This document shows, piece after piece, positions 2,663 to 8,004 of a stretch of 10,802 nt of DNA. How positions within the stretch are numbered: the first letter of the stretch is position 1; every line of letters starts with the position of its first letter. The position numbers and the translations under genes were made by a program. The notes beneath the pieces were generated by a model. That model was not told the DNA's origin and searched no databases. It worked only from the letters and a program-made list of their open reading frames with translations. Source of the stretch: Candidatus Tectimicrobiota bacterium (lineage in GTDB: Bacteria > JACPSX01); contig JACPSX010000003.1 in NCBI GenBank assembly GCA_016193065.1, positions 1 to 10,802 of the forward strand. The letters run 5' to 3'.

Positions 2663-4183
2663 GTGCCCGTGTCCGAACATCTCACCGGTGAGCAGACCCG
2701 TCCAACCCGCTTTCACCCTGGATCGTTGCAGGACCCCGGCGCGATTCTCCTCATTTCCTGCTACGAGCTGGGGCGCCAGCCCCTGGGTGTCGCGTTCCCC
2801 CTGAGCTTCCTGCAGCAGTCCGGCTACGAACCCGAGGTTCTGGACATCTCCATCCAGGAGCTGGATGAAAAGAAAATCGCGCGCGCCCGTTTTGTCGGGA
2901 TTTCCGTCCCCATGCACACGGCCCTGCGCTTGGGAGTGCAAGTGGCCGAACGGGTGCGGGAAATCAATCTGGCCTGTCACATCTGCTTCTACGGCCTCTA
3001 TGCCACCCTGAACGCGGATTATCTGTTGGAGCACTGGGCCGATTCGGTGATCGGCGGGGAAATCGAGGCTCCTCTGGTTCAGCTTATTGGGGTCCTGGAG
3101 AGGGGGGACAGGGCTCCAATTCCGGGAATCGCCCGGCGTCAGCAGAACGCCGGGCCATTCCTGGAAAAACTTTCCTTTCCGGTTCCCAGCCGCCATTCTC
3201 TCCCGGACCTTACCAAATACGCCCGCCTGGAGCAGGGCGGAGAGCAGAGGCTAGTGGGTACCGTGGAGGCCAGCCGCGGTTGCAAGTACATGTGCCTCCA
3301 CTGTCCCATCCCGCCGGTGTACGGCGGGCGCTTCTTCGTGGTGCCCTCCGAGGTGGTCTTGAAGGACATCCGGAACCTGGTGGGGGCAGGGGCCTCGCAC
3401 ATCACCTTCGGGGATCCTGATTTCCTGAACGGCCCTGCCCATTCCCTGCGAATCGTCCGGGCCATGCACAGGGAATTCCCGGAAGTTACCTTCGACTTCA
3501 CGGCCAAGATCGAGCACATCGTCAAGCACCGGGCAATCTTCCCTGAATTGTCGGCTCTGGGATGCTTGTTTGTCGTGTCCGCCGTAGAGTCCCTGAGCGA
3601 CGTGGTCCTGGGGCATCTCGAGAAGGGCCACACGTGCGCCGATGTGGTGACCTCCCTGGAGATCCTGCGAGAGGCGGGAATCACGCTCCGTCTCTCCCTG
3701 GTCTCTTTCACTCCTTGGACCACTTTGGACGACTACATCGAGGTCCTGGAGTTTGTGGAAAACCATGGCCTCATTGATCAAGTGGACTCGGTGCAGTACT
3801 CGATCCGGCTTCTGGTGCCTCCGGGCTCTGCGCTTCTCAAGCGGCCCGCGATCCGGCCGTTTTTGGGGGAGCTCGACCAGGCTTCCTTCCTTTACCCCTG
3901 GGTCCACCCGGACCCCCGCGTGGATTTGCTCTACCATGAGGTCAGCGCGGTTGTGGAGGAGGCGGCCTGCTCGGGGGAGGAGCCAGTGAAGACGTTTCAA
4001 CGGGTGCGGGAGCTTGCTTACCGGATGCGAGGCGACCCGGTACCGGCGGGGGTTCCGGCCGGGCTCGATTCCGTGAAGAGACGAGCGCCCCGTCTTACCG
4101 AATCCTGGTTTTGCTGAGCGGAGCCCACCGAGGGCCAGTTGGGCCCTCTGAGAGCTCAAACTCCTGACAGATCGGCAATTTGA
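2663..4183 (+). CDS. CUAEP-tail radical SAM selenoprotein with B12-binding-like domain
   Basis: Predicted product of 506 residues if TGA 4115-4117 is read as selenocysteine (Sec485). Residues about 27-145 resemble a B12-binding Rossmann domain (AILLISCYELG..., later GGEIEAPL), but the DxHxxG cobalamin motif is absent. The radical SAM core follows, with the 4Fe-4S/AdoMet motif CKYMCLHC (Cys207, Cys211, Cys214 from the GTG start). The frame reaches ...ESWFC, then TGA GCG GAG CCC, giving Cys-Sec-Ala-Glu-Pro. It continues AEPTEGQLGPLRAQTPDRSAI and ends at TGA 4181. This tail matches the family named CUAEP/CCAEP-tail radical SAM (seleno)protein, recalled from NCBIfam, whose reaction is unknown to me. 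A SECIS-like hairpin follows the TGA. The GTG start is chosen over ATG 2501 because of its ribosome site, the TATAAT at 2600 and lack of conserved sequence upstream. First gene of a five-gene operon. Reading the TGA as a stop would leave a 484-residue protein. Confidence 0.9.
4112..4126 (+). other. Cys-Sec-Ala-Glu-Pro tail with in-frame selenocysteine TGA
   Basis: The codons TGC TGA GCG GAG CCC read C-U-A-E-P in the frame of the radical SAM gene, with the TGA at 4115-4117 recoded as selenocysteine. A Cys-Sec vicinal pair near a C-terminus recalls the mobile redox tail of animal thioredoxin reductase, though a metal- or substrate-binding role is equally possible. An ordinary stop at this point would not be expected to be followed by this exact family motif. 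Confidence 0.88.
4121..4157 (+). promoter_or_regulatory. Bacterial SECIS element candidate
   Basis: Directly after the TGA, GAGGGCC (4130-4136) and GGCCCTC (4142-4148) form a perfect 7-bp stem with a 5-nt apical loop AGTTG. A short lower helix GAGC (4121-4124) with GCTC (4154-4157) can extend it across a 5x5 internal loop. A G is the second loop base (4138), 20 nt beyond the TGA. This agrees with the relaxed bacterial SECIS description (G in the first two loop positions, loop about 16-37 nt from UGA). There is no T-tract, so it is not an intrinsic terminator. Binding of SelB is inferred. Confidence 0.75.
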
Positions 4184-4215
4184 TCGCGTAACCCGAAAGG
4201 AAAGGGGAACAGACA

Positions 4216-4515
4216 ATGGAAGGTATGGAAGGCATGACGGATCTCGGAGAAAAGGTGCAGTACATCCTCGATACGGCCGTCAACCCCGCCATAGCAGCCC
4301 ACGGAGGCTACATCGAGCTCATCGAGGTGAAGGACAAGACCGTCTACGTTCGCATGGGCGGAGGTTGCGCGGGATGCGGGGCTGCCGACATCACTCTGAA
4401 GGCCGGTGTGGAGGCGATGCTCAAGGAAGAGATCCCGGAGATTGAAGAGGTTCTTGACACCACCGACCACGCCGCGGGTACGAACCCGTATTACAGCCCG
4501 GGCAAGGGGTTTTAG
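4216..4515 (+). CDS. NifU C-terminal-domain (NfuA-type) Fe-S carrier protein
   Basis: This 99-residue protein is a single NifU-C/Nfu domain. The N-terminal helix and strand (VQYILDTAVNPAIAAHGGYIELIEV) are followed by the signature GGGCAGCGAADITLKAGVE with the cluster-binding pair Cys51-x-x-Cys54. Such domains bind a bridging 4Fe-4S cluster between two subunits and pass it to client enzymes in the cytosol. No NifU N-terminal scaffold or other domain is attached, so it is a minimal stand-alone form. The ATG at 4216 is preceded by an AGGAAAGGGG ribosome site. It lies 32 bp after the selenocysteine-extended radical SAM frame and 6 bp before the ATP-grasp gene. Its position suggests it loads or repairs Fe-S clusters of the neighbouring radical SAM enzyme, which is inference from context. 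Confidence 0.92.
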   Translation: MEGMEGMTDLGEKVQYILDTAVNPAIAAHGGYIELIEVKDKTVYVRMGGGCAGCGAADITLKAGVEAMLKEEIPEIEEVLDTTDHAAGTNPYYSPGKGF

Positions 4516-4521
4516 CGCTTC

Positions 4522-5775
4522 ATGCCCCGGCTCTTGCTGCTTCTGCCCACCACGACCTACCGCACGGAGGCTTTCCTGGAAGCCGCCTCGCGGCTCGGTG
4601 TGGAAATCACCGTGGGCTGCGATCGAACCCAGGCGCTGGCGGCCAGGCAGCCCAGCCATAATGTCACTCTCGACTTTCTCCATCCCAAGGAAGCGGCCCG
4701 AGTTGCAGCCCTGTTTGCCCGGAAGTACCCCATTGACGCCGTCGTGGGGGTCGATGACGACACGGCGGTCGTGGCCGCGGCTATTTCCGAGGCCCTGGAG
4801 CTCCCCCACAACTCCGTGGAATCCACTTTGGCCGCGAAAAACAAGCACCTCATGAGGGAGATGCTGAGACGCTGCGGAGTCCCGGTTCCTCGCTTCGCCG
4901 TTTTTTCCCTGGAAGACGATCCCGGCGATCTGGCCGGCCGGATGACCTACCCGTGCGTCTTGAAGCCTTTGATCCTGGCGGCCAGCCGGGGCGTCATCCG
5001 GGCTGACGGCGATCGCGAGTTTGTCGCCGCTTTCCGCCGGATCGAAGCGATGCTGCGCCAGCCGGAGGTGGCGGAGCGCGGAGAGCCCGCCCGCCGGATC
5101 CTGGTGGAGAATTTCATTCCCGGGCAGGAGGTGGCCCTGGAGGGGTTGTTGACGGATGGGAAACTTCAGGTGCTGGCTCTCTTTGATAAGCCGGATCCTC
5201 TGGACGGACCGTTCTTTGAAGAGACGATCTACGTGACCCCATCGCGTCATCCCGCTGCTGTGCAGGACGAGATCGTCTCCTGCGCGGCCCGCGCTGCGGC
5301 CGCCCTGGGGCTCCGGGAAGGGCCTGTACACGCCGAACTGCGCTTCAACTCCCAGGGCATATGGATGATCGAGATGGCGGCTCGCTCCATCGGCGGTTTG
5401 TGCTCCCGAATCCTGCGTTTCGGTGCCGGACTGTCCCTGGAAGACTTGCTCCTGCGCCATGCCCTGGGAATGGAGATTGAGTCCATGGAGCGCGAGCGCC
5501 AGCCCGCCGGGGTCATGATGCTGCCGATCCCCCAGGCCGGAGTCCTGCGGCAGGTGAGCGGAAAAGAGGAAGCGGAAGCCGTGCCGGGGATTGTTGAGGT
5601 TGCCATTACATCGCACCTGGGACAGGAACTCGTGCCTCTGCCCGAGGGGGCGAGGTATTTAGGCTTCGTGTTTGCGCGTGCCGAGACCCCCGATCGGGTG
5701 GAGGCTGCCCTGCGGGAGGCTCAGCCCCGGCTGCACTTCACGATTGAACCCTCACCTGTAGAGTCGACGGTATGA
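4522..5775 (+). CDS. ATP-grasp carboxylate-amine ligase (L-amino acid ligase type)
   Basis: This 417-residue ATP-grasp enzyme should activate a carboxylate as an acyl phosphate and join it to an amine, making an amide or peptide bond. The order is an N-terminal Rossmann-like domain (1-100, with VVGVDDDTAVVAA), the lid-domain entry KNKHLMREMLRRCGVPVPRF (106-125), an ATP-binding segment PCVLKP...SRGV (Lys148), the LVENFIPGQEVALEG strand (Glu196, Glu203), the metal-site HAELR and IEMAARSIGG strands (Glu272, Glu284, Arg288), and a C-terminal domain (about 328-410) resembling the second C-terminal domain of L-amino acid ligases. BacD-like dipeptide ligases and carnosine-synthase-like enzymes share this layout, and length is normal. 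It starts 6 bp after the NifU-like gene with a modest AAGGGG site 12 nt upstream, and its stop overlaps the next start by ATGA (translational coupling). Substrates cannot be read from the sequence. The alternative is a PurK/biotin-carboxylase-like enzyme, which fits less well. Confidence 0.88.
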   Translation: MPRLLLLLPTTTYRTEAFLEAASRLGVEITVGCDRTQALAARQPSHNVTLDFLHPKEAARVAALFARKYPIDAVVGVDDDTAVVAAAISEALELPHNSVESTLAAKNKHLMREMLRRCGVPVPRFAVFSLEDDPGDLAGRMTYPCVLKPLILAASRGVIRADGDREFVAAFRRIEAMLRQPEVAERGEPARRILVENFIPGQEVALEGLLTDGKLQVLALFDKPDPLDGPFFEETIYVTPSRHPAAVQDEIVSCAARAAAALGLREGPVHAELRFNSQGIWMIEMAARSIGGLCSRILRFGAGLSLEDLLLRHALGMEIESMERERQPAGVMMLPIPQAGVLRQVSGKEEAEAVPGIVEVAITSHLGQELVPLPEGARYLGFVFARAETPDRVEAALREAQPRLHFTIEPSPVESTV

Positions 5776-6971
5776 ACCCCGCCCGTGCCACCCGCCCAAG
5801 TGAGGTGCGGATCGGTCTCTCCATATCGCTCAGTGGAATGTTCTCCCGCCAGGGCCGCCAGGGGCTTCATGGGCTCGAGCTCTGGGTCCGGGATACAAAC
5901 CATGCCGGCGGCCTGCTGGTTCCATCGTGGGGGCAACGGGTCCCTCTCCATCTGATCGTTTACGATGATCTGAGCCGGGCGGAGTCGGCGAAGCGAAACG
6001 TGCAGCAGTTAATCGCGGCGGATCGTGTGGACATTCTCTTCGGCCCTTACTCCAGCGGCCTCACGATGATCGTGGCCCCGCTGGCCGCGGCGGCCGGCAA
6101 GCTGCTCTGGAACCACGGAGGCACCAGCGACGCTCTGTTCCGGCAGGGCTGGCAACACCTGATCAGCATCGCCAGCCCCGCCGGCGACTACTTTCGCGCC
6201 TTGCCGGCTCTCCTTGAGTCCCACCACCCCGGCCTGCGCGGGTTGAGCCTTCTCCACGACCGGCGCGGAACGTTTGCGGCCAACGTGGTGAGCGGCCTGG
6301 TCGAATCCTGCACTGAAGCGGGGATCCTCCTGTCTCCTTTTCCCTTTGAGTCCCCGCTTCGTCTGGCTTCTGATCTGGTGGCGGAAGCGCTGGCGCGGGA
6401 GCCCGGGGGGCTGGTGGTGGTCGGGCGGTATCAGGACGATGTGGAGGTGGTCGCGGCCTGCGCGGATTCTTTGCAACCTCCGAAGTTTGTGGCCGCCGTG
6501 GCGGCGGGACTCAATGCCTTCGGCACGGAGCTCGGTTCCCTGTCCGAAGGGGTGGTCGGTTCAAGCCAGTGGGAACCTGGACGGACCGCGGATCCCGTGA
6601 CGGGTCCTGCGCCCGGGGAATTTGTTGCGGCGTTCCGGAAAGCCTACGGGGAAATGCCCGAGTACCCGGCCGCGCAGGCTTACGCTCTGGGGATCATCCT
6701 GGAGAAGTGCGTGGAGAAGGCCGAAGACCTGGACGATGCCCATCTCCGCGCCGCCGCCTTGGGCCTGGACGTGACGACGTTGTTCGGCTGCTTCCGCCTC
6801 GATCCGGTTACGGGCCGCCAGATCGGCCATCAGGGGCTCCTGGTCCAGTGGGTCGCGGGGCAAAAGGTGGTGCTGTGGCCTCCGTCGGCTGGCGGGGCCT
6901 CTCTCAAGGAGTTCACTCCTTCTAAACAAGATCGGGGCGATGAGCTGGATTCCGGACTTACTATTGCCTGA
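5772..6971 (+). CDS. Leucine/amide-type substrate-binding protein lacking a signal peptide
   Basis: This 399-residue protein is a type-I periplasmic-binding fold of the leucine/amide/urea receptor family. It opens with RIGLSISLSGMFSRQGRQGLHGLELWVRDTN, the usual first strand and helix, then the LIVYDD strand (about 61-66), DILFGPYSSGLTMIVAPLAAA (about 87-107), and LWNHGGTSDALFRQGWQHLI where ligand-loop residues normally lie. The second lobe follows (VVVGRY, EYPAAQAYALGIIL). The N-terminus, MNPARATRPSEV, is polar with no hydrophobic core, so no signal peptide or lipobox exists. The start is fixed by a 4-bp ATGA overlap with the ATP-grasp gene. No permease or ATPase genes adjoin it. A cytosolic ligand receptor similar in principle to AmiC of the Pseudomonas amidase operon is therefore more likely than a transport component (inference). 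The ligand is unknown. Confidence 0.85.
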   Translation: MNPARATRPSEVRIGLSISLSGMFSRQGRQGLHGLELWVRDTNHAGGLLVPSWGQRVPLHLIVYDDLSRAESAKRNVQQLIAADRVDILFGPYSSGLTMIVAPLAAAAGKLLWNHGGTSDALFRQGWQHLISIASPAGDYFRALPALLESHHPGLRGLSLLHDRRGTFAANVVSGLVESCTEAGILLSPFPFESPLRLASDLVAEALAREPGGLVVVGRYQDDVEVVAACADSLQPPKFVAAVAAGLNAFGTELGSLSEGVVGSSQWEPGRTADPVTGPAPGEFVAAFRKAYGEMPEYPAAQAYALGIILEKCVEKAEDLDDAHLRAAALGLDVTTLFGCFRLDPVTGRQIGHQGLLVQWVAGQKVVLWPPSAGGASLKEFTPSKQDRGDELDSGLTIA

Positions 6972-6990: not shown

Positions 6991-8004
6991 ATGTCTTCAA
7001 AGTCGAAAATTATCGCCGCGGCGGTGCAGGCAGCCCCGGTCTACCTGAACAAGGAAGCTTCCCTTGAAAAAGCCTGCGGGTTGATTGCGCAGGCCGCCGA
7101 AAGGGGGGCCGACTTGATTGCGCTGCCGGAGGCTTTTCTTTCCGGTTACCCCTACTGGATCTGGTTTCAGCCCATCGGGGAGGGGATCCCCTATGCCGTG
7201 CGGCTGTTTGAAACATCCGTAAAGGTACCGGGACCGGAGACGGAAGCTCTGGGGGCTGCAGCTCGCAAGGCCGGAGCCTATGTCGTGATTGGCGTGAACG
7301 AGCTGGAGAACAAGGCCCTCTACAACACGCAGCTCTTCTTCGACCGCGAAGGGAAGCTGATCGGCAAGCACCGGAAGTTCAAGCCCACCTATGCGGAGAA
7401 GGTCATCTGGGCCGACGGGGACGGCAGCACCCACCGCGTTTACGAAACGGATTTCGGCGGCCTTGGTGGTTTGATTTGCGCAGAACATGCCATGGCCCTG
7501 CCCGGTTTCACGCTGGCTTCCATGGGAGAGAGGGTGCACGTCGCGATCTGGGTGGGGTTTGCAAGCTGTCTCGGGGAAGCCCGCCGGGAGGGCTTCCGGA
7601 ATCTCACCCAGGCGGCTGCTGTCTACCATGCCGTCGCCTTCCAGAGTTTTGTCGTCAACTCTCAATCCATCGTAGATGACTCCGCCCTGGAGGTTTTAGG
7701 CCATCCCAAAGAGATGGAGAAGGGCGGAGGATGGACGGCGATTATCGCCGCCGGTTCGGGCCGGATTCTTGGCGGACCGCTGGTGGATGATGAAGGGATC
7801 GTTTCCGCGGAAATCAACCTTTCCGACGCGATCCCGTTCTACTTCAACCGCGACGTGACCGGCCAGTACTGGTCCCCGTTTTTCACCGTGCAGTTCGATC
7901 CCAGGCCGCACTCCTCCGTCCAAATCGCCACGGAGCCTGGGGCTCCGAGGTACCAGTCGACGGAACCCGATGAACAGGATGCGGGCCCAGAGATCGGCCC
8001 GTAG
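6991..8004 (+). CDS. Nitrilase-family carbon-nitrogen hydrolase
   Basis: This 337-residue cytosolic enzyme belongs to the nitrilase branch of the C-N hydrolase superfamily. The catalytic set is readable: Glu47 in DLIALPEAFLSGYPYW, Lys129 in GKHRKFKPTYAE, and nucleophile Cys163 in GLGGLICAEH, with the accessory Glu165 at Cys+2. Length and the conserved YNTQLFFDREGK and WTAIIAAGSGRILGGP segments are typical of nitrilases proper rather than amidases. The family hydrolyses nitriles (or adds water to them), sometimes amides or cyanide. The nucleophile context is Cys-Ala-Glu-His where classical nitrilases have Cys-Trp-Glu-His, which suggests altered specificity. It lies 19 bp after the binding-protein gene and is the last gene of the operon. 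A neighbouring radical SAM gene recalls conserved Nit1-type nitrilase clusters, but the other Nit1 cluster genes are absent here. Nitrile hydrolysis is likely, and the substrate is unknown. Confidence 0.9.
   Translation: MSSKSKIIAAAVQAAPVYLNKEASLEKACGLIAQAAERGADLIALPEAFLSGYPYWIWFQPIGEGIPYAVRLFETSVKVPGPETEALGAAARKAGAYVVIGVNELENKALYNTQLFFDREGKLIGKHRKFKPTYAEKVIWADGDGSTHRVYETDFGGLGGLICAEHAMALPGFTLASMGERVHVAIWVGFASCLGEARREGFRNLTQAAAVYHAVAFQSFVVNSQSIVDDSALEVLGHPKEMEKGGGWTAIIAAGSGRILGGPLVDDEGIVSAEINLSDAIPFYFNRDVTGQYWSPFFTVQFDPRPHSSVQIATEPGAPRYQSTEPDEQDAGPEIGP

Follow-up and report, generated by a model that had tools for sequence, protein, structure and literature searches.

The window analyzed here, a stretch of 10,802 nucleotides, contains a radical SAM gene with an in-frame TGA codon close to its 3' end. 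Does this codon terminate the protein or encode selenocysteine, and what might an enzyme with such a tail do? In the radical SAM frame, the codons from 4112 to 4129 are TGC (4112-4114), TGA (4115-4117), GCG, GAG, CCC and ACC, and no further stop interrupts the frame for 21 codons past this TGA, up to a second TGA at 4181-4183. When read through, the C terminus becomes WFC-U-AEPT followed by 17 further residues (WFCUAEPTEGQ...). GTG 2663, with AGGAGAGGGGG upstream, is the likely start of the gene, as judged from a Shine-Dalgarno-like stretch and the edge of the HMM match. The features concerned are the following.

2663-4183, plus strand: gene for a CUAEP-tail radical SAM selenoprotein, 506 amino acids when read through, with the UGA-Sec codon at 4115-4117 and the true stop TGA at 4181-4183
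4115-4117, plus strand: UGA codon almost certainly read as selenocysteine (Sec485); 87 family members have TGA (62), TGC (15) or TGT (10) here and no other codon
4130-4148, plus strand: bacterial SECIS-type hairpin, GAGGGCC (4130-4136), loop AGTTG and GGCCCTC (4142-4148), with 7 of 7 pairs

The read-through product matches the NCBIfam family NF040546 (CUAEP/CCAEP-tail radical SAM (seleno)protein) with 680.9 bits without the tail and 695.7 bits with it (cut-off 500), and the match extends beyond the TGA as far as position 467 of the 468 in the profile. The C-terminal motif of the family, C-(U/C)-A-E-P, is present at 4112-4126. An earlier note on this DNA had named the family and had described an in-frame C-U-A-E-P with 21 open codons behind the TGA; the family was named correctly, and the motif and the stop at 4181-4183 lie exactly where the note had them. 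The window protein shares with the other members the CxxxCxxC motif, the Cys-Sec-Ala-Glu-Pro tail and a full-length match, and has no essential difference from them; with 21 codons behind the TGA, it merely continues somewhat further past the motif than many of them do. We hold the selenocysteine reading together with the family membership with high confidence. Since NF040546 is already catalogued in NCBIfam as a selenoprotein family, the window protein adds one member to it.

The family ranges over more than 10 bacterial phyla, and its cultured, sequenced carriers include Thermomicrobium roseum, Thermogemmatispora and Dictyobacter. As the earlier note had also claimed, stop-to-stop annotation removes the distinctive part of the protein: the standard annotation ends just before the family-defining residues. 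The same has happened in cultured Thermomicrobium roseum DSM 5159 (locus L138, NC_011961.1), where the CUAEP protein has the TGA form and the RefSeq gene, TRD_RS12835, ends at the TGA with the tail lost. In the literature searched, the CUAEP motif and the family name occur in no paper (a mention in Haft and Gwadz 2023 or Haft and Tolstoy 2025 is possible), and no function is described for the family. A 2026 inventory and review of prokaryotic selenoproteins contains neither the NF040546 accession nor the motif.

The members with a readable tail, 87 in all, were drawn from genome contigs and 145 diverse genomes. Neither TAA nor TAG was ever found at the Sec site, and 25 of these members carry Cys in place of the TGA. 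A lack of conservation beyond the Cys codon had been set beforehand as speaking against selenocysteine; an alignment of 85 sequences has C484, E487 and P488 in every row and Cys or Sec at position 485 throughout. About six switches between Sec and Cys are needed on the tree of these 85 members, so the exchange must have happened repeatedly. The rival reading is that the TGA is a true stop, that the protein ends in ...WFC, and that the AEPT codons and the hairpin behind them are vestigial or fortuitous. This agrees with the standard annotation, which ends there; however, it leaves the protein-level conservation past the TGA, the 25 homologues with Cys and the complete absence of TAA and TAG at the site to be accounted for. 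TGA serves as an ordinary stop in the ATP-grasp gene and the binding-protein gene of the window, and a genome-wide reassignment of TGA was therefore ruled out as the explanation.

The downstream hairpin, described as SECIS-like by the first reading of the sequence, was then judged by comparison. In 60 distinct TGA-form genes, a stem lies at +16 to +34 (numbered from the T of TGA) with 91.0% of its cells paired, as against a mean of 75.8% and a maximum of 79.8% in the control in which 3' arms were swapped among sequences. In the 25 Cys-form genes the stem is lost, with 51.4% of the cells paired versus 48.1% after the arm swap. The inner five pairs of the TGA-form stem are almost perfect, and G-C, A-U, C-G and U-A are interchanged across these genes, a covariation found in none of the Cys-form genes. 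Because the peptide encoded by the stem region varies (EGQLAL, EEQVAP, ASRKGS, LEDPSGP), the RNA is what is being kept. In the window sequence alone, the stability of the hairpin does not exceed that of shuffled sequence (z -0.62), and the case for it is thus comparative. The unremarkable single-sequence fold is a point for a true stop, while the restriction of the covariation to TGA genes is a point against it. Searching Rfam with the window and with 4095-4215 gave no SECIS family; the sole match, mir-136 (21.9 bits versus 64), was set aside as chance. One Gemmatimonadota group (L021, L131 and L133) has the loop GGAAA in place of the usual AGTTG or AGTT and keeps the stem.

The machinery for selenocysteine follows the codon across genomes, in agreement with the selenocysteine reading. 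Among 58 genomes, SelA scored over its cut-off in 31 of 33 with the TGA form versus 7 of 25 with the Cys form (Fisher p 1.4e-7), and SelB gave the same counts (31 of 33 versus 7 of 25). For the genome of the window itself there is a draft assembly (2.9 Mb, 294 contigs, completeness 86%), and the nearest relatives of this genome among those searched are related at the domain level only. The earlier proposal to look there for selA, selB, selC and selD had a divided outcome. SelB is present (370.6 bits), as are two different SelD genes (L016 and L017), each with an in-frame TGA at its catalytic site (HGAG-U-GCK and CAG-U-AGK) and therefore in itself evidence of selenocysteine decoding in this genome. 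The 86% complete draft yielded neither SelA nor tRNA-Sec; its best matches to tRNA-Sec read as Ser, Leu, Trp or Thr/Gly/Tyr tRNAs. The missing SelA is likely a gap in the draft, since the selB contig begins about 260 bases upstream of selB, and in several relatives selA stands directly before selB.

The draft genome with neither SelA nor tRNA-Sec detected can be read in favor of a true stop, but across genomes the machinery goes together with the TGA form, and we consider termination at 4115-4117 very improbable. Taken by comparison, the TGA at 4115-4117 almost certainly encodes selenocysteine. Recoding of the SelB type at the hairpin 4130-4148 would let the ribosome pass the UGA and produce the 506-residue protein.

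The structure of the protein was predicted from the 85-sequence alignment, with a mean pLDDT of 92.5 and an average of about 83-84 for residues 471-490. Judged by these confidence values, the tail may be ordered rather than floppy, and the flexible C terminus assumed in the earlier note may be wrong. The best structural matches of the model are AprD4, OxsB, MgmA, TsrM and MiaB (Z 22-27). The first four resemble it with Z 24-27 over 360-437 residues, but at 17-19% identity, and the matches mostly stop before the Cys-Sec tail. They also differ in the DxHxxG motif, which none of the 85 CUAEP members has in the N-terminal domain. The B12-like domain of the earlier note was not borne out either: the B12-binding Pfam scored 21.4 bits, under its cut-off of 32.1, and because DxHxxG is absent from all 85 members, cobalamin binding is not indicated by the sequences. 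Some cobalamin-dependent radical SAM enzymes bind cobalamin without DxHxxG, and binding of that kind is conceivable here.

We then considered the genes downstream of the CUAEP gene in the window.

4216-4515, plus strand: NifU/NfuA C-terminal-domain protein (Fe-S carrier), 99 amino acids, PF01106 88.5 bits
4522-5775, plus strand: ATP-grasp amino-acid ligase (LAL_C2), PF13535/PF18603, with the invariant Cys294 encoded by TGC 5401-5403
5772-6971, plus strand: Peripla_BP_6 homologue, PF13458 107.5 bits, overlapping the ligase stop and not conserved with the family
6991-8004, plus strand: nitrilase-superfamily protein, PF00795 138.3 bits, not conserved with the family

Nearly every genome with a CUAEP gene also has one particular ATP-grasp amino-acid ligase. 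An orthologue with at least 49% identity, adjacent or not, was found in 44 of the 46 CUAEP genomes searched, a few of these being fragments or frame-broken draft copies (G145, G163, G181), and in 0 of 34 genomes without CUAEP, which gave two weak matches at 27-28% (p 1.4e-20). This 44 of 46 link is new in this analysis. The ligase shares its ATP-grasp and LAL_C2 architecture with the L-amino-acid ligases BacD and DdaF, but it scores far under the named equivalog cut-offs and differs in an invariant Cys after SIGG whose codon is TGA in four genomes. A search of viral contigs with the ligase found no relative.

At the position right after SIGGx, 68 places, among them a few genes that were read twice, gave 66 Cys, one TGA and one alignment gap. 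The four ligases with TGA there (G094, G196, G197 and G195; loci L174-L177) come from three genera of one phylum and are 68-91% identical. The ligase TGA is followed by GGGACCGGGATGTCCC, identical in all four, and the hairpin downstream of the TGA is likewise the same in each. The Cys-form ligases of the same phylum (L178-L181) are without the stem, and L179 encodes the same RFGTGMSL peptide. In L174-L177, the CUAEP gene, which ends in TGA-Sec, lies about 1 kb upstream. On these features of the sequences, the ligase of L174-L177 is probably a selenoprotein that has gone undescribed, beside the one of the CUAEP family; the TGA at its invariant Cys is likewise new in this analysis. In the literature searched, the terms selenoprotein, ATP-grasp and SECIS come together in no paper, and the 2026 inventory has no ATP-grasp entry. 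That the family travels with this ligase, itself apparently a selenoprotein in some bacteria, points to a hitherto unrecognized biosynthetic pathway.

The next-best family for the CUAEP protein is ArsL, the arsinothricin synthase (NF040542, RCCLKC-tail radical SAM; 332.9 bits, E 3e-99, under the cut-off of 450), for which transfer of the 3-amino-3-carboxypropyl (ACP) group has been reported (PMC8552651). The two share a homologous core with many invariant residues and a vicinal Cys pair near the C terminus, and the ArsL pair aligns on C484-U485, with about 45 gapped residues to be bridged in that part of the alignment. Apart from the Cys pair the tails are unlike: ArsL has RCCLKC at its very end, a sequence missing from the window tail, and has no Sec. 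On the ArsL plasmids of Priestia, Alicyclobacillus and Klebsiella (L139-L141), which have ArsM, ArsN1 or ArsR nearby, there is an ATP-grasp protein distantly related to the window ligase (best 26% identity, E 1e-21), with Ile at the position of the CUAEP-ligase Cys in Alicyclobacillus. The related ligase on these plasmids is new in this analysis, and its presence suggests that the ArsL clusters may make arsinothricin in a ligated form.

ArsL sits among arsenic genes, whereas CUAEP does not. In 89 CUAEP loci, ArsM and ArsR occur in 1, an arsenic transporter occurs in 2, and ArsN1 is essentially absent; the window has no arsenic genes. Since only 1-2 of the 89 loci have arsenic genes nearby, arsenic metabolism was set aside as the direct role of CUAEP. 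The CUAEP enzyme could still be an arsinothricin-type arsenic enzyme, an ArsL with a different tail, given that ArsL is the nearest described family, that it has the Cys pair too and that its ATP-grasp partner is related. We regard this as improbable in view of the score of 333 bits versus 450, the lack of an RCCLKC tail and the near absence of ArsM, ArsR and ArsN1 from the loci.

By analogy with ArsL, we tentatively propose ACP transfer to a soft acceptor followed by ligation. The [4Fe-4S] cluster would cleave SAM to give the 3-amino-3-carboxypropyl radical, as in ArsL, and the Cys-Sec pair, bent back against the barrel, would hold or activate a soft acceptor, either a metalloid, a metal, or a sulfur or selenium species. 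The 3-amino-3-carboxypropyl group would then move to the acceptor and yield an amino acid, which the ATP-grasp ligase, with Cys/Sec294 in an active-site segment, would join to another molecule. Plain arsenite is an unlikely acceptor, since the arsenic genes are so rare at these loci. The score below the ArsL cut-off, the different tails and the alignment gap are points against an ArsL-like chemistry.

Fe-S carriers such as NfuA and ErpA often stand beside the CUAEP gene: NifU/NfuA homologues occur in 29 of the 89 loci, the window included, and ErpA/IscA, YggX and DUF169 are neighbors at others. A vicinal Cys-Sec near the C terminus is the arrangement of mammalian thioredoxin reductase. With selenocysteine accepted, the tail might instead be a redox couple (a selenylsulfide), serving to supply electrons or to shield the enzyme and not to bind a substrate. 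The likeness to thioredoxin reductase, the repeated Sec/Cys switching, as in redox selenoproteins, and the nearby Fe-S carriers would all suit such a couple, but the tail is predicted to be ordered (pLDDT about 83) rather than a swinging arm, and the aligned Cys pair of ArsL belongs to an enzyme with a thiophilic-element substrate. We consider a redox couple rather unlikely.

Selenocysteine would likewise be compatible with a Cys-Sec pair that ligates a second metal or Fe-S cluster, auxiliary or sacrificial, renewed by NfuA or ErpA as for lipoyl synthase. The carriers beside the gene (NifU/NfuA in the 29 loci, ErpA/IscA or YggX beside others) fit such a cluster, as does the finding that invariant Cys besides those of CxxxCxxC occur in the tail only. 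However, for a classical [4Fe-4S] cluster two ligands would be a small number, and we judge this role unlikely.

Returning to ACP transfer and ligation, the CUAEP enzyme and the ATP-grasp ligase may together form an undescribed and widespread two-enzyme pathway with Sec at important positions in both enzymes (in one phylum for the ligase, in many for the radical SAM enzyme), whose product would be an ACP-derived amino acid or peptide with a soft element other than arsenic. This is a possible reading, more doubtful than secure. The pathway would matter most: a Cys-Sec radical SAM enzyme is linked here to one specific amino-acid ligase, and the ArsL arsenic-antibiotic system offers a template for the mechanism. 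The ligase with in-frame UGA at its invariant Cys would be a selenoprotein type missing from the 2026 prokaryotic inventory. The cultured carriers make the function directly testable.

The other two downstream genes were set aside as pathway members because they do not recur as neighbors. Among the other loci of the 89, the Peripla_BP_6 homologue has no match and the nitrilase has one weak match. The Peripla_BP_6 homologue (5772-6971) is UrtA-like, has no evident signal peptide and overlaps the ligase stop with its start (ATGA); it may be a cytosolic sensor. Upstream of the CUAEP gene, a direct repeat of about 24 bases, tcttcccagttcctcgcccag, lies at 1978-2030 inside a ChrB-like gene (1225-2328).
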